DNA of 64,000 bases. Source: Halorubrum sp. Hd13 (GTDB lineage: Archaea > Halobacteriota > Halobacteria > Halobacteriales > Haloferacaceae). The stretch lies in NCBI RefSeq assembly GCF_002252755.1, contig NZ_NHOY01000096.1, forward strand, positions 1 through 64,000, written 5' to 3'. Positions 3,819-30,736 of the stretch are shown piece by piece. The notes beneath the pieces were generated by a model. The model was not told the origin of the DNA. It ran no database searches and worked only from the letters and a program-made list of their open reading frames with translations. The translations under genes and the position numbers were made by a program. How positions within the stretch are numbered: position 1 is the stretch's first letter; every line of letters begins with the position of its first letter.

Positions 3819-6800
3819 ATGGCAACTAACACGCCGGACCCGGACCCGCGGGACGGGGGGGACTTCGACTACACCGGGGGCGAGACCGAGCGTCCGGAGC
3901 TCGTGGCCGCGCTCGAACGCCGAGTCGACGGTGACGTGCGGTTCGACGACTACTCGAAGCGGCTCTACGCGACCGACGCCTCGGCGTACGAGGTGACGCC
4001 CATCGGCGTCGTGATGCCCGAATCGACCGCGGACGTGGCGGCGGTCCAGGAGTACTGCTTCGCCGAGGGGATCCCCGTGCTACCGCGGGGCGGCGGCACG
4101 TCGCTCGCCGGGCAGACCGTGAACGAGGCGGTCGTCCTCGATCTCACGGACTCGATGGACTCCGTGCTCTCGACCGACCCGGACGCGGCGACGGCCCGGG
4201 TCCAGGCGGGGGCGTACGTAGGCGACCTCAACGCGGCGGTCGAGCCGCACGGGCTGAAGTTCGCGCCCGACCCGGCGTGGCGCGACAAGTCCGCGGTCGG
4301 CGGCGCGATCGGTAACAACTCCACCGGCTCGCACTCGCTGAAGTACGGGAAGACGGACCACTACGTCGAGGAGGCCGAGGTCGTGCTCGCGGACGGGACG
4401 GTGACGACCTTCGGCGAGGTCGCCGTCGACGACCTCCGCGAGTCCGCCGACGTCGACGCCGACGCGCTCCTCCCGCGGATCCACGCCGAAACCGTCCGGA
4501 TCCTCGACGAGGAGGCCGACGAGATCGACGAGCGCTACCCCGAGATGAAGCGGAACGTCTCCGGCTACAACCTCGATCGGCTGCTCGCCGAGCACCGCGG
4601 CGAGTACGGCGAGGCGGGCGTCGTCAACCTCGCTCGGCTCATGGCCGGCAGCGAGGGGACGCTCGCGACCGTCACCGAGGCGACGGTCTCGCTCGTCGAG
4701 ATCCCCCACACGAAGGCGGTCGCGCTGCTGACGTACGACGACCTCCTCGACGCGATGGAGGACGTGGCGCCGATCTTAGCGCACGACCCCGCCGCCGTCG
4801 AGGTGATGGACGACGTCCTGCTGGGGCTCGCCGCCGACACGCCGGAGTTCGCCGACGTCGTCGGGATGCTGCCCGAGGGGACGAGCTCCGTCCTCCTCGT
4901 CGAGTTCTACGCCGAGGGCGACGCGGACGGGAAGCAGAAGGTCGCGGACCTCGTCGCCGACCGGGTGGGCGCGACCGACGACCGTCCCCGGCCCGAGACG
5001 GAGTCGAACCCGAGCGAGGGCGCCGCCGACGTGACGAGCCAGCCGCGCCGCGCGGTCCACGCGATGGAGGCGCACGACGCCGAGCAGCGCGACCGGTTCT
5101 GGAAGATGCGCAAGTCCGGGCTCCCGATCCTCCTCTCGCGGACCACCGACGAGAAGCACATCTCCTTCATCGAGGACTGCGCGATCCCGCCGGAGCACCT
5201 CCCCGAGTACACCCGCGAGTTCCAGGAGATCCTCGAGGACAACGGCACGTTCGCGACGTTCTACGCGCACGCCGGCCCCGGCGTGCTCCACATCCGGCCG
5301 CTGATCAACACGAAGGAGGTCGACGACGTCGAGGCGATGGTCGACATCGCCGACCGCGTCACCGACGCCGTGGTCCGGCTCGGCGGGTCGGTCTCCGGCG
5401 AGCACGGGGACGGGCACGCTCGGACCCAGTGGAACCGGAAGCTGTACGGCGACGAGCTCTGGGGGTCGTTCCGCGACCTCAAGACCGCGTTCGACCCCGA
5501 CTGGCTGCTCAACCCCGGGAACGTCTGCGGCGACTTCGACATGAGCGAGAACCTCCGGTTCGACTCGGAGTACGACTACGACGCCGGCTTCGACCCCGCG
5601 ATGGAGTGGGCCATCGACAACGGGATGCAGGGGATGGTCGAGCTCTGTCACGGCTGCGGCGGCTGTCGGGGGCCACAGGAGACGACCGGCGGGGTGATGT
5701 GTCCGACGTACCGCGCCTCGGAGGAGGAGATCCAAGCGACTCGCGGCCGAGCGAACATGCTTCGGGGCGCCATCTCGGGGGATCTGCCCGACGACCCCAC
5801 CGGCGACGAGTTCGTCACGGAGGTGATGGACCTCTGCGTCGGCTGTAAGGGGTGTAAGGTGGACTGCCCGAGCGGCGTCGACATGGCGAAGCTGAAGGCC
5901 GAGGTCGAGCACGCCCACCACGAGGAGCACGGGATCGACCTGCGGACGCGACTGCTCGGCAACTTCGAGTCGCTCGCGCCGCTCGGCTCGAAGCTCGCGC
6001 CGCTCTCGAACCTCCCGGGGAAGATTCCCGGCGCCGGTCTCGTCATGGAGAAGGCCCTGGGAATCGCGAAGGAGCGCGACCTGCCGACGTTCCGCTCTGA
6101 GACGCTGACGGACTGGTTCGAGGCCCGCGGCGGCGCCGGCGTTCCCCGCGACGAGGCCGACCGCGAGGTCCTCCTGTTCCCCGACGTGTACACCACCTAC
6201 ACGAACCCCGGCGCCGGGAAGGCCGCGGTCCGGGTGTTGGAGGCCGCGAACTGCCACGTCGAGATCCCGGACGTCGACGGGAGCGGGCGCCCGCCGCACT
6301 CGAAGGGGATGCTCGACGAGTCGCGCGCGGCGGCGAGAGACGCCGTGGAGACGCTCGCGCCCGAGGTCAGCGACGGCCGCGACGTGGTCGTCGTGGAGCC
6401 GACCGACGCCGTGATGCTCCAGTCCGACTACCACGACCTGCTCGACGGCGACGCCAGCGACGTGCCGGACGCCGACGTGGCGACCGTCTCGGAGAACACC
6501 TACGGCGTCATGGAGTACGTCGACGCCCACCGGCTCGACGAGGCGATCGACCTCGACGCCCCCACGGAGTCGCTCACGTACCACGGCCACTGCCACCAGA
6601 AGGCGACGAAGAAGGACCACCACGCGGTCGGCGTGCTCCGCCGCGCGGGCTACGGCGTCGACCCCTTGGACTCCTCCTGTTGCGGGATGGCGGGCTCGTT
6701 CGGCTACGAGGCCGAGCACTACTCGATGAGCAAGGCGATCGGCCGGATCCTCTTCGACCAGGTCGCGGAGAGCGACGGCGACGCGGTCGTCGCCCCCGGC

Positions 6801-6890
6801 GCCTCGTGCCGGACGCAGCTGAAGGAGCGCGACGCCGGCGCCCCGGAGCCGCCGCACCCGGTGGAGAAGCTCGCGGCCGCGCTGGCGTAA
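3819..6890 (+). CDS. FAD-linked oxidase / iron-sulfur fusion (D-lactate or glycolate dehydrogenase, GlcD-GlcF type)
   Basis: 1023 residues. Residues about 60-240 are an FAD-binding type 4 domain (VLPRGGGTSLAGQ), followed by the FAD-oxidase C-terminal domain to about 570 (GSVSGEHGDGHART). Then come two 4Fe-4S clusters (CHGCGGCRG at about 610, CVGCKGCKVDC at about 673) and a CCG domain (YHGHCHQK, SCCGMAGSFG near 950). This is GlcD and GlcF in one chain, as in large D-lactate or D-2-hydroxyglutarate dehydrogenases. It lies divergent from the LutBC-like operon, so a D-hydroxy-acid substrate feeding the quinone pool is likely. The exact substrate is not determined. Confidence 0.87.
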   Translation: MATNTPDPDPRDGGDFDYTGGETERPELVAALERRVDGDVRFDDYSKRLYATDASAYEVTPIGVVMPESTADVAAVQEYCFAEGIPVLPRGGGTSLAGQTVNEAVVLDLTDSMDSVLSTDPDAATARVQAGAYVGDLNAAVEPHGLKFAPDPAWRDKSAVGGAIGNNSTGSHSLKYGKTDHYVEEAEVVLADGTVTTFGEVAVDDLRESADVDADALLPRIHAETVRILDEEADEIDERYPEMKRNVSGYNLDRLLAEHRGEYGEAGVVNLARLMAGSEGTLATVTEATVSLVEIPHTKAVALLTYDDLLDAMEDVAPILAHDPAAVEVMDDVLLGLAADTPEFADVVGMLPEGTSSVLLVEFYAEGDADGKQKVADLVADRVGATDDRPRPETESNPSEGAADVTSQPRRAVHAMEAHDAEQRDRFWKMRKSGLPILLSRTTDEKHISFIEDCAIPPEHLPEYTREFQEILEDNGTFATFYAHAGPGVLHIRPLINTKEVDDVEAMVDIADRVTDAVVRLGGSVSGEHGDGHARTQWNRKLYGDELWGSFRDLKTAFDPDWLLNPGNVCGDFDMSENLRFDSEYDYDAGFDPAMEWAIDNGMQGMVELCHGCGGCRGPQETTGGVMCPTYRASEEEIQATRGRANMLRGAISGDLPDDPTGDEFVTEVMDLCVGCKGCKVDCPSGVDMAKLKAEVEHAHHEEHGIDLRTRLLGNFESLAPLGSKLAPLSNLPGKIPGAGLVMEKALGIAKERDLPTFRSETLTDWFEARGGAGVPRDEADREVLLFPDVYTTYTNPGAGKAAVRVLEAANCHVEIPDVDGSGRPPHSKGMLDESRAAARDAVETLAPEVSDGRDVVVVEPTDAVMLQSDYHDLLDGDASDVPDADVATVSENTYGVMEYVDAHRLDEAIDLDAPTESLTYHGHCHQKATKKDHHAVGVLRRAGYGVDPLDSSCCGMAGSFGYEAEHYSMSKAIGRILFDQVAESDGDAVVAPGASCRTQLKERDAGAPEPPHPVEKLAAALA

Positions 6891-7014
6891 GCGGCGCCGG
6901 CGTCGGTGGTGGTCGCGTCGACGTGGGCTACGGCGGCGTCAAGCTCGGCTGCCGCGTTGCCCTCGCCGGTGGCTACGGGGCGCCCGCGGGCGGCTCGGTC
7001 GGTCTCGACGCGCC

Positions 7015-7224
7015 TCACCCCGCGTTCGAGCGCACGTTCGCCGTGACGAGGGCGATCAGGTACGAGAACGCCGGGAACGTCACCGCGACCACCGCGAGAA
7101 ACGCCGGATCGAGTCCGGCAGGGTCGTCGGAGAGCCACCCGGTGTACTGGAGGACGGCCAGCGTGAGGACCACGACCGCCGTGTTGAGCGCGTACTCGGG
7201 GAGCGAGGGGCTCGGGAACCGCAT
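7015..7224 (-). CDS. small two-helix membrane protein
   Basis: 69 residues with two hydrophobic helices (about 12-30 and 39-61) separated by a short acidic loop (SDDPAGLD). It has no recognisable domain and no catalytic motif. It lies 21 nt downstream of the stop of the gene at 7246-8241 on the same strand, so it may be cotranscribed. The reading frame and composition look coding, but evidence is limited to hydrophobicity and position. Confidence 0.6.
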   Translation of the reverse strand: MRFPSPSLPEYALNTAVVVLTLAVLQYTGWLSDDPAGLDPAFLAVVAVTFPAFSYLIALVTANVRSNAG

Positions 7225-7245
7225 ACACCCGGCTGGCGCCGCCGC

Positions 7246-8241
7246 TCACTCAACGCTTTCGACGCGGTCCCGCTCGCGCTCGCGACGTCGCCCTAGCACC
7301 CGCTTGAACCCCTTCCCGGGACCGCCTTCGATAGGCCACCCCCTCGTTCGCCACTGGGGCGGTTCGGGCGAGAACTCCGGGCAGGAGCCCGAACACTCCC
7401 GCGCGGTCGGAACCTTCTCCTTCGCGGCGCAGTGCGGGACGAGCGACCGCCCCTCGCGGCGGAGCTCGAAGTGGCGGCAGTCCGGGCGCATCGTCTCGTG
7501 GTACGAGCGCCACCCCTTCCCGTAGGCGCGCTCGGCGATCTCCACGCGGAGGGTCTCCGTCTCGGGGTCGCGACGCTCGTCGCCTGCGGGCGCGAGGTCG
7601 CTCGGGTGCCACGCCACGCTCGCCGCGTCGGCGCGGACGCCGTCGGAGAAGTCGGTCGCGAGGATCCCGGCCTCGACCGGCATCTCGCGGAGCAGCGCGG
7701 GCTCGACGCGCTCGCCCGTCGTCTCGGTCGCGAGCCACGCCTCGTCGGCGAGGGCGGTGTCGACGTCGTGGGCGAGCTGGTCGGCGAGCCGGTCGGCCGC
7801 CGAGCGGTCCAAGTCGGGCTTGTTCTCGACCGCGACGATCCGGTCGACCCAGTCCGGGTACGGCCGCTTCCGGCGGAGCTGGATCCGGTTGTTCCGCCGG
7901 CGTTTTTCGATCAGGTCGCGGCCCGCGGCGCGGTGGACCGCCCGCCGGACGTAGCGCCACGGGTAGCCGGGGTGCGGGAGCGCGTCGCGGTACCACGACC
8001 ACTCCGCCGGCGCGTGGCGGACGACGTGGAGGAGGTCGGAGTCGATGGCCCGCTCGCCGAAGGCGCGCCGAACCGCGAACGCGGCGGGGTCGACCTCGAT
8101 CACGACCGTGTCCCAGCGGCGCTCCTTCGTGCCGAGCTGCCGGGCGACGATCGCGGGTCGCGGGCCGCCGCTCGGGTGCCACGCCAGCTCGGCGTACCGG
8201 CAGACGAGGAGCTCGTAGCCGAATTCGGCGTCCGGAGTCAC
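7246..8241 (-). CDS. haloarchaeal protein, DUF5787-like; possible PD-(D/E)XK Fe-S nuclease
   Basis: 331 residues. I associate it with a haloarchaeal family catalogued as DUF5787, with moderate confidence. The sequence reads PD at 129-130, then eight residues, then ENK at 139-141, matching the PD-(D/E)XK nuclease core. A helix of the RLADQLAHDVDTAL type follows, as in such nucleases. Five cysteines have a Cas4/AddB-like distribution: one near the N-terminus (C14) and four near the C-terminus (C255, C271, C283, C287). That pattern suggests an iron-sulfur or zinc site. The nuclease role is my inference; the family is uncharacterised as far as I know. The C-terminal tail is Arg-rich. Confidence 0.72.
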   Translation of the reverse strand: MTPDAEFGYELLVCRYAELAWHPSGGPRPAIVARQLGTKERRWDTVVIEVDPAAFAVRRAFGERAIDSDLLHVVRHAPAEWSWYRDALPHPGYPWRYVRRAVHRAAGRDLIEKRRRNNRIQLRRKRPYPDWVDRIVAVENKPDLDRSAADRLADQLAHDVDTALADEAWLATETTGERVEPALLREMPVEAGILATDFSDGVRADAASVAWHPSDLAPAGDERRDPETETLRVEIAERAYGKGWRSYHETMRPDCRHFELRREGRSLVPHCAAKEKVPTARECSGSCPEFSPEPPQWRTRGWPIEGGPGKGFKRVLGRRRERERDRVESVE

Positions 8242-25537: not shown

Positions 25538-26581
25538 ATGATCGAGGTGGCGGGGTTGCGGAAGACGTACGGCGACTTCGCGGCCGTCGTCGACAGCGAC
25601 TTCTCCGTCGAGGAGGGGGAGGTGTTCGGCATCGTCGGCCCGAACGGCGCGGGCAAGACGACGACGCTGAAGGTGCTCGCCGGGCTCGTCGATCCCACCG
25701 AGGGCGACGTCGAGGTCGCCGGCTACCCTTCGGACGACCCGGAGATGCGACGGCGACTCGGCTTCCTCCCCGAGGAGTCGCCCCTGTACGAGGAGATGAC
25801 GCCGCTGTCGTACCTGCGCTTCTTCGCCGACCTGTACGACGTGCCGCGCGACGTCGCCGACGAGCGCATCGCGGCCGCGCTCGACCGGCTCGAACTCGAC
25901 CACCGCGAGCGCCGGCTCGGCGACATGTCGAAGGGGATGAAACGCAAGGTCGCCATCGCGCGGTCGCTGGTCAACGACCCGGACGTGCTCGTGTACGACG
26001 AGCCGGCCTCGGGGCTCGACCCGGTGACGACGAACTCCGTGCTGGAGTTCACCCGCGAGCTCCGCGCCGCCGGGAAGACCGTCGTCTTCTCCGCGCACAA
26101 CCTCTACCACGTCGAGTCCGTCTGCGACCGCGTCGTCGTGATGAACGAGGGGCGAATCGTCGCCCGCGGGAGCGTCGACGGGATCCGCGAGCGACACGGC
26201 GAGACGACGTACCACGTGTTCACCGACGTCGCGCCCGCCGCGACCGACCGGTTGACCGCGGCCGTCGGCGACACCGACGCCGCGACCGAGGAGGTCGGCG
26301 ACCGGTTCCGCACCGCCGTCCCGGACATGGACGGGGTCGAGGCGGTCCGGGCGGCCGCCGCGGAGGCGGGCGGCGAGGTGGTCGACATCCGCACCCGAGA
26401 GCCGAGCCTGGAGGACGTGTTCCTCGACATCGTCGGTCGGCCGATGCCCGGCCGGTACACGGGCGGCGGCGGGGCGGTCGCGGACGGGAACGCGGGAGAC
26501 GGCGACGAGGGGGGCGACGGCGGCGAGGGAGACGGCGGCGACGCGAACCGACCCGCCGAGCCGCGGGAGGGGGTCGAGTGA
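25538..26581 (+). CDS. ABC transporter ATP-binding protein, NatA-like
   Basis: 347 residues. Walker A is GPNGAGKTTTLK (about 35), the signature segment is DMSKGMKRKVAIARSL (about 145) and Walker B is VLVYDEPASGLDP. The ABC-2-associated C-terminal segment runs to about 305. A Gly/Asp-rich tail of about 40 residues follows. GTTTAACC lies about 28 nt before the ATG. The permease gene starts inside its stop (4-nt overlap), so the two are translated together. It powers the two permeases that follow. Confidence 0.93.
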   Translation: MIEVAGLRKTYGDFAAVVDSDFSVEEGEVFGIVGPNGAGKTTTLKVLAGLVDPTEGDVEVAGYPSDDPEMRRRLGFLPEESPLYEEMTPLSYLRFFADLYDVPRDVADERIAAALDRLELDHRERRLGDMSKGMKRKVAIARSLVNDPDVLVYDEPASGLDPVTTNSVLEFTRELRAAGKTVVFSAHNLYHVESVCDRVVVMNEGRIVARGSVDGIRERHGETTYHVFTDVAPAATDRLTAAVGDTDAATEEVGDRFRTAVPDMDGVEAVRAAAAEAGGEVVDIRTREPSLEDVFLDIVGRPMPGRYTGGGGAVADGNAGDGDEGGDGGEGDGGDANRPAEPREGVE

Positions 26582-28623
26582 TCGACCGCCTCGGGAGGGT
26601 TCTCCGGGTCGCCCGCTGGGAGGTCGCTCGCGCCGGGGGCGGCGTCGACCGCCGGACGTTGCTCGCGGCGCTCGCGCTCCTGCTCGTCGCCGGCGCCGTC
26701 CTCGGTGGGGGGCTCGCGGTCGGCGCCGTGGGGCTCGACGTCGACCGCGACGTGTACCGGGTCGCCGTCGACGGCGACTCCCCGTACGCGGACGCCGTGG
26801 ACGAGGCGCCGGCGCTGACGCCGGTCCCCGTCGGAAGCGCGACGCTCGGTGAGACGGCGGATCTCGTCGTCCTCGACGTGGGGCGGGGGGAGTCCGGTGC
26901 GGTCGAGACAGTCGCCGTCCGCGCCAGCGACACGCGGAAGGGCGAGGCCGCGGCCGCCGAGTTCCGCGAGGCCGTCGAGGCGCACAACGAGCGGCTGATG
27001 GCCGACGAGGAGAACGCGACCGCCGCCTTCCCCGTCGCCGTCACCCTCCGGTACGTCGGCCGGACGAGCGCGCTCGACGACGGCTCGACGCTCGGGGAAG
27101 CGAGCGACGGCTCCGGCGGTGACGACGGCTCTGACGGCGACGACGGTTCGGGCGGCGACGACGGCTCTGACGGCAGGGGTGGTTCGGGCGACGGGAGCGG
27201 AAGCGACGGGACCGACGGGGACGACGACGCCGGCGGGGGGACGGGTGACGCCGCGCTCGACGGCGGCGCCTCGGGCGACGGGAGCGGAAGCGACGGGACC
27301 GACGGGGACGACGACGCCGGCGGGGGGACGGGTGACGCCGCGCTCGACGGCGGCGCCTCGGGCGACGGGTTCGCGGTGCCGTCGGTCGGCGGCGGGACGT
27401 TCGGCGCCGACACGGCGGGCTCGCCCGGATCGATCTCGCCGCCGTTCCCCTTCGTCTCGCTGCTCCTGGCGTTCGTGTTCCTCGTCCCGATGAACTTCCT
27501 CATCCAGGCGTACGGCTCGTCCGTGCTCGACGAGCGCACGAACCGGCGGGGGGAGCCGCTGCTCGTCACGCCGCTCTCGCCGGTGGACATCGTCGCCGGG
27601 AAGACGCTCCCGTACGTCGCGGCCGCGCTCCTCGTCACGACCGTCATCGCGGTCGCCGTGGGGGGCGGCGCCCTCTCGGTGATCGCCGTGCTGCCCGTCG
27701 CCCTGACCTTCCTCGCGGCCACGTTCGTCGGCGCGATGTTCGCGCGGTCGTTCAAGGAGCTCACCTTCGTCACGGTCGGCGTCAGCGTGCTCCTCACGAC
27801 GTACGCGTTCGTCCCCGCCGTCTTCACCAACGTGACGCCGGTCGCGCTGGTGTCGCCCCTGACGCTCGTCGTCTTCGACCTGCAGGGCGAGGCCGTCTCG
27901 GTCGGCGAGGCGCTCTTCTCGACCGGGCCGATGGCGCTCGGCGCCGCGCTCCTGTTCGGCCTCGGGCTCGGGGTGTACCGCGAGGAGGACATGTTCACCC
28001 AGAAGCCGGTGACGCGGAAGCTCCTCGACGCGCTCGCGGTGCGGCTCTCGGCGGTCGACGACGCCGGACTCGCCGACCTCGCCGACCGCCGGCGGCTCCG
28101 CGCGCTCGGCTCGGTCGCGTTCCTCACCGCCTGCGCGATCCCCTTCGTCTTCGTCGTGGAGCTGCTGGCCGTCGCGACGCTGTTCGCGCTTCCGGTGACG
28201 GTCTCGGTCCCCGTCCTCCTCGTGACCATCGCCTTCGTCGAGGAGGTCGCCAAGAGCGTCGGCCTCTACGCCGGGTTCGAGCGCGGCGTCTTCGCCCGGA
28301 CCGACCGGGTCGCCGTCGCGGTCGGGCTCGCCTCCGCGGTCGGCTTCTTCCTCGCCGAGAAGGCCACGGCGGTCGTGCAGGCGGTCGGCCTCACCGAGCT
28401 GTACGTCGGTCGAGCGGCGTTCGGGAGCGTCGCCGGCGTCGACGGGCTCTCCCCCGTCGCCGCCGCGGCGCTGCTGTTCGCCCCTCTCCTGCTCCACGGG
28501 TTCGCCACGACCGTCGCCGCGGTGGGCGCGAGCCGGGACCGGACGGCGTACGCGCTCACGCTGGCGCTGGCGACGCTGCTCCACGCCGCGTACAACTTCG
28601 GGGTGGTGAGCGTTCATGGGTGA
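26578..28623 (+). CDS. ABC-2 type permease fused to a PrsW-like intramembrane protease domain
   Basis: 681 residues. The N-terminal part has a helix at about 28-50, an external domain to about 165, an Asp/Gly-rich linker (about 168-264) and a bundle of helices at about 290-465, as in NatB/ABC-2 permeases. The C-terminal part (about 510-681) has the PrsW metalloprotease motifs: EEVAK (555-559), FLAE (591-594), H640 and HAAYN (669-673). PrsW cleaves within the membrane in Bacillus anti-sigma control. GTG start at 26578 overlaps the ATPase stop. Proteolytic activity is inferred from the motifs. Confidence 0.85.
   Translation: MIDRLGRVLRVARWEVARAGGGVDRRTLLAALALLLVAGAVLGGGLAVGAVGLDVDRDVYRVAVDGDSPYADAVDEAPALTPVPVGSATLGETADLVVLDVGRGESGAVETVAVRASDTRKGEAAAAEFREAVEAHNERLMADEENATAAFPVAVTLRYVGRTSALDDGSTLGEASDGSGGDDGSDGDDGSGGDDGSDGRGGSGDGSGSDGTDGDDDAGGGTGDAALDGGASGDGSGSDGTDGDDDAGGGTGDAALDGGASGDGFAVPSVGGGTFGADTAGSPGSISPPFPFVSLLLAFVFLVPMNFLIQAYGSSVLDERTNRRGEPLLVTPLSPVDIVAGKTLPYVAAALLVTTVIAVAVGGGALSVIAVLPVALTFLAATFVGAMFARSFKELTFVTVGVSVLLTTYAFVPAVFTNVTPVALVSPLTLVVFDLQGEAVSVGEALFSTGPMALGAALLFGLGLGVYREEDMFTQKPVTRKLLDALAVRLSAVDDAGLADLADRRRLRALGSVAFLTACAIPFVFVVELLAVATLFALPVTVSVPVLLVTIAFVEEVAKSVGLYAGFERGVFARTDRVAVAVGLASAVGFFLAEKATAVVQAVGLTELYVGRAAFGSVAGVDGLSPVAAAALLFAPLLLHGFATTVAAVGASRDRTAYALTLALATLLHAAYNFGVVSVHG
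27184..27369. repeat. perfect 87-bp tandem duplication within the ABC permease linker
   Basis: Two identical 87-bp units (27184-27270 and 27271-27357), followed by 12 bases of a third (27358-27369). The unit encodes 29 residues of Ser/Gly/Asp-rich linker and preserves the frame. Lack of any difference between copies suggests a recent duplication. Confidence 0.95.
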
Positions 28624-29698
28624 CGCGGAGCGCCGCGGGGGGACCGCCGGACGAAGCAGCCGACTGACCATCGCCGGTCGCGAGCTCGCGGGCCTGAGCG
28701 CGGAGAAGACGATCCTGCTGGCGGTCGCGATACAGCTGTTCATCGCCGCGTTCTCGTCGTTCCTCGTGGTCGGGCTCGTCTCGATGTACGACCCCGGCGC
28801 GCTCGGCGGCGCGGAGGTGGAGGTGGCCGGCGCGGGCGACGCGGTGAGCGATCTCGAGCGAGCCGCGAGCGAGGTCGACGGGGCGTCCGTCACGCGCTAC
28901 GAGGACGCGGGCGCCGCGCGGCTCGCGTTCGAGCGCAACGCCGCCGACGCGGTGGTGGTCGCCGATCGGAACCACGAGGGGCGGATCGTCGCGCGCGTCA
29001 CGGCGCCGGACGCGACCGTCGAGACGACCGTGATCGTCGTCCAACTCCGCGAACTGCTCCGGACGTACGAACTGAACGAGCGCGCCGACCGGACCGCGTA
29101 CCTGACCGAGTCGCCGCTCCCGCTGCCCGAGCGGACCGGCTCCAGCCCGTACTTCACGTTCACCTACACCGTGTTGATCCCGGTGTTGGTGTTCCTCCCC
29201 GTCTTCATCTCGGGGTCGCTCGTAGTGGACTCGATCACCGAGGAGATCGACGAGGGCACCCTCGAACTGCTCCGGGTCGCCCCGGTCACGCTGGGGGAGA
29301 TCATCGACGGGAAGGCGCTCGCGGCGGTCGCGATCGCCCCCGGACAGGCGCTGTTGTGGCTGCTGCTTCTCCGCGCGAACGGCACGCCAGTCGCCAACGT
29401 CCCGTCGATCCTCGCGCTGATGACCGCGCTGACGACGCTCGTCGTCGCGCTGGCGGTCGCCATCTCGGCGCTCGCGCCCGACCGCCGGGCCGCGCAGTTC
29501 CTCTACTCTATCGGCGTGCTCGTTCTGTTCGGCGGCGCCACGGCGATGGCCGGAGGGCCGGCGAACGCGGTCGCGCGGCTCGCGATCGACAGCGCCGACG
29601 CGAGGACGACCGCCCTCGTCGTCGCCTACGTCGCCATCGCCGCGGTCGCGTACGCCGGGGTCAGGCGGCTGGTCGCGGCGAACGGGTTCGGGGACTGA
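28616..29698 (+). CDS. ABC-2 type permease, NatB-like
   Basis: 360 residues with a cytoplasmic N-terminus (LTIAGRELAGLSAEKTILLAVAIQLFIAAFSSFLVVGLV), one helix, an external domain (about 55-180) and five helices at about 185-350. FISGSLVVDSITEEIDEGTLELLRVAPVTLGEIIDGKALAAVAIAPGQALLWLLLL is typical of ABC-2 permeases. It overlaps the PrsW-fused permease by 8 nt. It is the second half-transporter of the same operon. The substrate is unknown (Na+, drug or antibiotic export are the usual roles). Confidence 0.9.
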   Translation: MGDAERRGGTAGRSSRLTIAGRELAGLSAEKTILLAVAIQLFIAAFSSFLVVGLVSMYDPGALGGAEVEVAGAGDAVSDLERAASEVDGASVTRYEDAGAARLAFERNAADAVVVADRNHEGRIVARVTAPDATVETTVIVVQLRELLRTYELNERADRTAYLTESPLPLPERTGSSPYFTFTYTVLIPVLVFLPVFISGSLVVDSITEEIDEGTLELLRVAPVTLGEIIDGKALAAVAIAPGQALLWLLLLRANGTPVANVPSILALMTALTTLVVALAVAISALAPDRRAAQFLYSIGVLVLFGGATAMAGGPANAVARLAIDSADARTTALVVAYVAIAAVAYAGVRRLVAANGFGD

Positions 29699-29782
29699 GG
29701 GACCGGCGCACCGCGATCCCGAAAAGTTAGAAAAATAATAGTTTTTAGGTCCCGCGCGGTCGTCGTGGAACGCGGTGATCAC

Positions 29783-30736
29783 ATGTCTTCGCCGTCAGCG
29801 GTCGACGCGTTCCCCGGATTCGTCGCGCTCGACGCGCTAGCGGTGCTCGAGGGAGAGCGCCCCGGTGCCAGCGTCCAGCTGACGGAGGGGTACTTACACG
29901 GCCAACAGCGGATGCTGGAGGCGATTGACCGCCCCGACGTCACCGACGACCGGGTCGACACCTGTCAAGAGTCCCGGCGGATCTGGGGGGACCTCCACGT
30001 CGACATCGGCTCTCGTACCGAGGGGAACCTCCGAGAGGCGTCGACCCGTCTCCGCGACCTACTCCGCGGGCTCCCGGAGGTCCGGTATCTCAGGGATCGG
30101 TACCCGGAGACCTGTTTCGTCGTTCCGGAGTGGCTCCGGACGCCGGGCGAGGTCCAGTACGGGGCCAGAGTGTACTTCTTCGCCGACGAGGCGCCCGCGC
30201 CTGACGAGATCCTGGATCGAAACATCCGGGCCGTGCTGGACGAGTCGCCGGGAGCGTTCGACCGGTATCTGGGCTCGCTCCACGGCTATCCGGAGTGCTG
30301 TGTCGACTACTACGCGGGGGCGACGCGGTCGCCGACGGCCGAATCGCCGGAAGCGAGGTCGATCGCTCCGCTCGCGGATATCGTGGACGAGGAGCGGGTA
30401 CACGGAGGGGCTCCCTCGTCGTCGTCCGTCACCGAGATACTGCCGGGGTTCTTCGAGCGCCCGCAGAGCTACGCCTTCTTCGCGCACGCGTTCTACCCGG
30501 AGCCGGAGTGTGACGCGGCGCGGCGGACCGGCGTCTCGATATACGAGACGCTCGCCGAGAGCCTCCCCGAGTCGCTGGTCCGGGACTACTTCCGGGTTAA
30601 TTTCGGCTGGTCGTACCTCCTCGAGAGATCGGCCCGACGACGAGTCGACTGCGTCCCCGAACCGGGAGCCTTCGGGCGTGAGCACGCGTTGCTGTATCTC
30701 CCGCTGCAGATACTGCTGGAGACCGGGGTCTACTGA
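29783..30736 (+). CDS. GYPECC-motif protein, DUF483-like
   Basis: 317 residues from ATG 29783, which has a GGTGA ribosome-binding match 4 nt upstream; a GTG at 29765 is the alternative start. The AAAAATAATA box at 29731-29740 is the likely TATA. The distinctive motif is HGYPECCVDYY (Cys172-Cys173), which I associate with the DUF483 family of archaea. The double cysteine suggests metal binding. There is no membrane segment. The gene stands alone after the ABC operon. The role is unknown. Confidence 0.7.
   Translation: MSSPSAVDAFPGFVALDALAVLEGERPGASVQLTEGYLHGQQRMLEAIDRPDVTDDRVDTCQESRRIWGDLHVDIGSRTEGNLREASTRLRDLLRGLPEVRYLRDRYPETCFVVPEWLRTPGEVQYGARVYFFADEAPAPDEILDRNIRAVLDESPGAFDRYLGSLHGYPECCVDYYAGATRSPTAESPEARSIAPLADIVDEERVHGGAPSSSSVTEILPGFFERPQSYAFFAHAFYPEPECDAARRTGVSIYETLAESLPESLVRDYFRVNFGWSYLLERSARRRVDCVPEPGAFGREHALLYLPLQILLETGVY

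Follow-up and report, generated by a model that had tools for sequence, protein, structure and literature searches.

An ABC-2 permease fused to a PrsW-type intramembrane protease domain in Halorubrum and other Halobacteriota

A three-gene locus in Halorubrum sp. Hd13 raises the question of whether one polypeptide is both a subunit of an ABC transporter and an intramembrane protease and, if so, what such a combination might do. The locus lies in a 64,000-nucleotide stretch of DNA, which we call the window. An earlier note, made from the letters of this stretch, had proposed that the middle gene joins ABC-2 permease helices to a PrsW-type protease. We therefore examined the two halves of the encoded protein, its genomic neighborhood, and its distribution.

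The operon and its permease half

All features of the three-gene operon described here lie on the + strand. The fusion gene (26578..28623) is an intact open reading frame of 681 codons with a GTG start, and its identification rests on the reading frame and on conservation among orthologues. It is preceded by the gene for a NatA/DrrA-like ABC transporter ATPase, a partner subunit (25538..26581; Pfam ABC_tran, 2.3e-30; DrrA1-3_C, 3.2e-8), and followed by that for a second, NatB-like ABC-2 permease, also a partner subunit (28616..29698; Pfam ABC2_membrane_3, 9.3e-14). The GTG start lies within the ATPase stop, giving a 4-nt overlap, and the 3' end of the fusion gene overlaps the start of the second permease by 8 nt; rereading the open reading frames thus reproduced the coordinates and both overlaps described in the earlier note. 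In a comparison of locus neighborhoods, the ATPase gene adjoined the fusion gene in nearly all haloarchaeal loci and the NatB-like permease gene did so in 93 of 94 loci. When these neighborhoods were searched for a conserved substrate gene, only the ATPase and the second permease were kept throughout. The locus neighborhoods also yielded no regulator gene linked to the operon and no conserved sorting-signal gene, and no conserved small precursor gene was found among neighboring open reading frames of at least 70 amino acids. About one locus in four also has an aldo/keto reductase gene downstream. The gene that follows the operon in the window (29765-30736) has a weak match to DUF483 over residues 165 to 194 (17.8 bits, below the cut-off) and a relative at the same place in one other locus (L018).

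In the whole-chain AlphaFold2 model (m5b09da552bdc), residues 1 to 160 (26578..27057) form a cytoplasmic elbow helix, TM1 (residues 25 to 47), and a small alpha/beta extracellular domain. Residues 160 to 285 (27055..27432) are an acidic Gly/Asp/Ser low-complexity extracellular linker that is disordered in the model. The length of this linker varies from 66 to 145 amino acids across haloarchaeal orthologues, and in the window it contains a perfect tandem repeat (27184..27369; 87 bp, 2.1 copies, 100% match), given which the linker may have expanded by recent duplication. Residues 292 to 466 (27451..27975) contain TM2 to TM6 of an ABC-2 permease according to Pfam and the predicted fold. The Pfam match of the window chain, to ABC2_membrane_3 (PF12698) at residues 292 to 423, is below the cut-off at 25.9 bits; a non-haloarchaeal orthologue (L243) matches the same family above the cut-off, at 38.6 bits. 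The predicted fold matched ABCA, ABCG, and NosY transporters, the best among solved structures being ABCA4 (residues 4 to 489, Z 17.6) and NosY (Z 16.1). The placement of ABC-2 helices at about residues 290 to 465 in the earlier note is thus supported by a subthreshold Pfam match together with the predicted fold, and the locus has the parts expected of an ABC-2 exporter permease: TM1, an extracellular domain, TM2 to TM6, and an adjacent ATPase.

Identity of the C-terminal domain

In the whole-chain model, a separate helical domain begins at about residue 504, after five ABC-2 helices. This domain (residues 504 to 681, 28087..28620; domain model m975922ded47b, pLDDT 91) has five to six helices and ends right after the helix that bears an HxxYN motif. 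To identify it, we compared a profile built from 82 orthologous domains with a profile of stand-alone haloarchaeal PrsW using hhalign, which gave a probability of 94 (E 1e-7) with four motifs in register. The controls for the same profile gave 0.2 for reversed PrsW, 3.4 for CPBP, 0.1 for the NatB partner, and 0.4 for the ABC-2 half. In agreement with this, the PrsW family PF13367 scored above its gathering threshold of 23.5 bits in 7/7 isolated haloarchaeal orthologue domains (30.0 to 38.7 bits), and it also matched many orthologues in whole-genome scans. The isolated domain of the window copy had no Pfam match, PrsW included, and PF13367 did not rise above the gathering threshold in the isolated domain of the non-haloarchaeal orthologue L243. 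The HMM check that the earlier note had proposed for the C-terminal region therefore favored PrsW in the orthologues, while the window copy itself fell below detection.

The domain carries the four motifs of the PrsW family in the expected order (EExxK, FxxxE, H, and HxxxN/D), on successive core helices. In motif 1, EEVAK (residues 555 to 559, 28240..28254), both glutamates and the lysine are invariant in 62/62 haloarchaeal orthologues (collected by searching with the full-length chain) and in 20/20 non-haloarchaeal ones. Motif 2, F590-x3-E594-K595 (28345..28362), is invariant, as is motif 3, H640 (28495..28497; 62/62 and 20/20). In motif 4, H669-A-A-Y672-N673 (28582..28596), the histidine and the tyrosine are invariant and the asparagine is present in 61/62 and 20/20. 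The residues invariant in the 62 haloarchaeal orthologues are E555, E556, K559, F591, E594, K595, H640, H669, and Y672, and all 20 non-haloarchaeal orthologues keep E555, E556, K559, F590, E594, K595, H640, H669, Y672, and N673; F591 is not conserved in the latter group. Across the whole domain, the only residues invariant in all 82 orthologues are P522 and those of the four motifs. Given this near-complete invariance of the key residues, the occurrence of the motifs is far beyond chance on the sequence comparisons. One set of 80 loci was fetched with the patterns of motifs 1 and 2, so that in this set independent evidence comes from motifs 3 and 4 alone. All the motifs quoted in the earlier note are at the positions it gave, but the second is better defined as F590-x3-E594, within FFLAEK (residues 590 to 595). 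From the helix ranges of the model, each of the four motifs would sit close to the midpoint of its helix, on four helices in a row. Positive charges fall in the loops predicted as cytoplasmic, following the positive-inside rule.

A search of the PDB by sequence profile returned no match, and a Foldseek search of the PDB with the domain model gave no significant one. In a VIA ranking, the model was closest to APH-1A (Z 11.2) and APH-1B (Z 10.8), followed by two chains of multipass-translocon/BOS complexes (Z 10.1); a Z of about 11 is below the level of about 13 under which caution is advised for helical bundles, and the ranking is suggestive only. It fits a PrsW/APH-1 superfamily, APH-1 having been related to PrsW in superfamily studies cited in PMC4602095. 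Rce1 was absent among the structural matches listed, which is uninformative either way. The PrsW family (PF13367, MEROPS M82; for example B. subtilis PrsW and the stand-alone haloarchaeal PrsW-like protein HVO_0408) has the same EExxK, FxxxE, H, and HxxYN order on successive helices. Most PrsW proteins have eight helices (PMC3482391), whereas the domain described here is fused to an ABC-2 permease and has about six. We did not treat the typical eight helices as defining. The five to six helices in the AlphaFold2 model correspond to the core that bears the motifs and a single kinked segment on its N-terminal side, and the outer helices of a typical eight-helix PrsW are absent.

Other identities were considered and rejected. 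PrsW is grouped with the glutamic-type Rce1/CPBP proteases, and a CPBP/Rce1-like domain (PF02517) would have EExxxR in place of EEVAK; no PF02517 match was found, and the hhalign probability was only 3.4. An ABC-2 or NatB identity, which would have undone the protease proposal had the region matched nothing else, received hhalign probabilities of 0.4% and 0.1%, respectively. HExxH, the motif of site-2 zinc metalloproteases, occurs nowhere in the 681 residues, and B. subtilis PrsW is a signaling protease that cleaves at site 1 (PMC9263693); the label "site-2-like" used in the earlier note is therefore wrong. Taken together, the profile comparison with its controls, the isolated-domain Pfam matches, the motifs, and their conservation across the phylum bear out an ABC-2/PrsW fusion on one chain. 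Judged by its sequence, the C-terminal domain is of the PrsW type, not CPBP and not ABC-2, and it is probably an active protease. In none of the fusions tried did full-length Pfam or NCBIfam scans detect the PrsW half, and the PGAP name of one orthologue is just "ABC transporter permease subunit." Because full-length hmmscan is silent and the PGAP label is generic, the protease half is easily missed.

Distribution and known relatives

The survey of haloarchaeal genomes for the same fusion, as the earlier note had suggested, returned a whole-chain match in 150 of 194 genomes, of which a few were weak and not orthologues. Haloferax elongans, Haloferax larsenii, and Haloferax marinum are among the carriers. 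A profile of the C-terminal protease domain matched 199 of 393 genomes across the Halobacteriota. All 20 non-haloarchaeal loci examined have the N-terminal region (residues 1 to 160), the ABC-2 half, the protease half, and the same partner permease; the chain is single in all but one (L241, a draft genome), whose parts are spread over overlapping reading frames. In all but two of these loci the ATPase gene lies nearby in the opposite orientation; in L241 it shares the strand of the fusion, and in the shortest locus none was seen. Because these genomes belong to non-haloarchaeal members of the phylum, most of them are presumably methanogens. Trees of both halves are compatible with a single split between the haloarchaea and the rest (support of 95 for the ABC-2 half; AU p of 0.62 for the protease half), the pattern expected from a single old fusion.

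The fusion was present in one copy per genome in the genomes tested individually. Among about 150 carriers, only two cases of a permease lacking the protease were seen, a deletion (G091) and a fragment (G184), and no intact unfused permease orthologue was seen in the genomes searched. In the natural deletion (locus L053 of G091, approximately 5851-8117), the permease ends near position 172 of 194 of the ABC-2 profile, the protease domain is gone, and the NatB match begins within the reading frame of the permease stub. Searches of plasmids found only one archaeal orthologue, the bacterial matches being distant ABC permeases. A 540-kb plasmid of Haladaptatus salinisoli (NZ_CP085330; L266, 4394-8173) carries the whole three-gene operon with the same 4-nt and 8-nt overlaps. 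A contig labeled as an uncultured Bacteroidetes metagenome-assembled genome (L223) has a haloarchaeal-type copy of the domain with 52% identity, and its label is probably a binning error. The genome from which the window was taken (G000) also encodes a separate stand-alone PrsW, and it has 15 Rce1/CPBP-like (PF02517) matches over many contigs, whereas the congeners searched have 2 to 8 each.

Several known systems resemble the fusion in part. NatAB/DrrAB/NosFY-type ABC-2 exporters also consist of an ATPase and permeases with the same transmembrane and elbow-helix layout, but here one permease bears a protease. The NCBIfam family NF041647 ("ABC transporter permease subunit/CPBP intramembrane protease") comprises bacterial fusions of the same design with a protease of the same superfamily, but it carries a CPBP domain where the window chain carries a PrsW domain. 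NF041647 did not match the window chain, and 0/60 genomes of the phylum scored above its 435-bit cut-off. No description of an ABC-PrsW fusion was found in the literature searched. A survey of archaeal fusion proteins gives ABC-2 transporters a prominent place, with proteases going unmentioned in its main text; the available text of two reviews of archaeal membrane proteases does not name the fusion protease; and the later of the two gives only HVO_0408 for PrsW in Haloferax volcanii. The joining of an ABC permease to a protease of this superfamily is therefore already known from NF041647 (CPBP), and the PrsW version appears to be new, since NF041647 is unmatched and no description of it was found in the literature searched.

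Proposed role and alternatives

We give about even weight to a model in which the three genes encode one complex whose protease cleaves membrane peptides and whose attached exporter removes the product. Such a complex would probably contain two ATPase copies, one NatB-like permease, and one permease with a built-in glutamic-type PrsW protease. Its predicted E555/E556-H640-H669 site, placed at mid-membrane, would most likely cleave hydrophobic or membrane-anchored peptides, with spent signal peptides, transmembrane stubs, or a secreted-peptide precursor as candidate substrates, and the ABC-2 exporter would then pull the cleavage product out of the membrane. The direction of export is assumed from ABC-2 relatives. 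We infer the coupling of cleavage to transport by analogy to EcsAB-RasP of Bacillus subtilis, for which this would be a one-chain parallel: there too an ABC transporter is functionally tied to an intramembrane protease, and loss of EcsAB blocks intramembrane proteolysis by RasP, a membrane-cleaning role (peptide removal) having been proposed (PMC2996298; also PMC7478892). Coupling is supported because the fusion holds a fixed place next to the second permease, in haloarchaeal and other lineages alike, because among the carriers seen a permease lacks the protease only in one deletion and one fragment, and because no other neighbor is conserved throughout. Against the model as a whole stand the lack of a linked precursor-peptide gene among the open reading frames searched, the window copy falling below Pfam detection of PrsW, the absence of the outer PrsW helices, and the fact that EcsAB and RasP are separate proteins, RasP being a site-2 metalloprotease unrelated to PrsW.

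The same observations bear on other readings. The ABC-2 part might sense an envelope signal or ligand and gate the PrsW domain, which would cleave a membrane-bound regulator, much as Bacillus PrsW acts in signaling at site 1 (PMC9263693). Tethering would be a natural route to such gating, but the operon has no linked regulator gene, and the nearly constant presence of the ATPase and the second permease favors transport, so we consider this unlikely. The cleavage of the anti-sigma factor RsiW in Bacillus, which the earlier note had invoked, does not carry over directly, because archaea, to our knowledge, lack sigma factors and hence sigma/anti-sigma pairs. Somewhat less likely still is a processing enzyme in the manner of Rce1 or myxosortase that trims a hydrophobic end, with the transporter moving either the lipid-linked product or the tail that is cut off. 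Rce1, which acts on CAAX proteins, and CPBP belong to the same fold superfamily, and myxosortase has been shown experimentally to be a CPBP sorting enzyme for MYXO-CTERM proteins (PMC11980579); the domain is nevertheless clearly closer to PrsW than to CPBP by hhalign, and the neighborhoods hold no conserved sorting-signal gene.

An inactive, purely structural C-terminal domain, comparable to APH-1 in gamma-secretase, appears very unlikely even though APH-1 chains are the solved folds closest to the model (Z 11.2 and 10.8), since all catalytic-motif residues are invariant, a constraint that a structural role would not impose. Bacteriocin clusters often contain CPBP proteases and ABC-2 exporters, which could hint at maturation and export of a halocin-like peptide or at self-immunity to one. 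This is the least probable of the readings: the fusion is usually single-copy and occurs in the majority of haloarchaeal genomes as well as in further lineages of the phylum, no conserved small precursor was seen among neighboring frames of at least 70 amino acids, and the pattern resembles housekeeping and not a variable weapon. Because the single copy is widespread and a precursor gene is not linked, the distribution argues for a general envelope function over a toxin or bacteriocin system.

The fusion is not a local oddity, occurring in haloarchaea and in many non-haloarchaeal members of the phylum, and it adds a protease beyond those named for archaeal membranes in the available text of two reviews. 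It may even represent a phylum-wide archaeal housekeeping machine, missed by standard full-length annotation, that clears membranes by cutting and extracting, with one chain cleaving peptides within the membrane and passing the product to its own ABC exporter, although we lean somewhat against so broad a role. Cooperation between an ABC transporter and an intramembrane protease has a precedent in the need of RasP for EcsAB, where the membrane-cleaning role is a proposal. In a natural, ancient, and nearly obligate fusion, such coupling is directly testable by point mutants in one gene. The catalytic residues, invariant in the relatives checked, together with the fusion itself, suggest a complex that cleaves a substrate within the membrane before transporting it.
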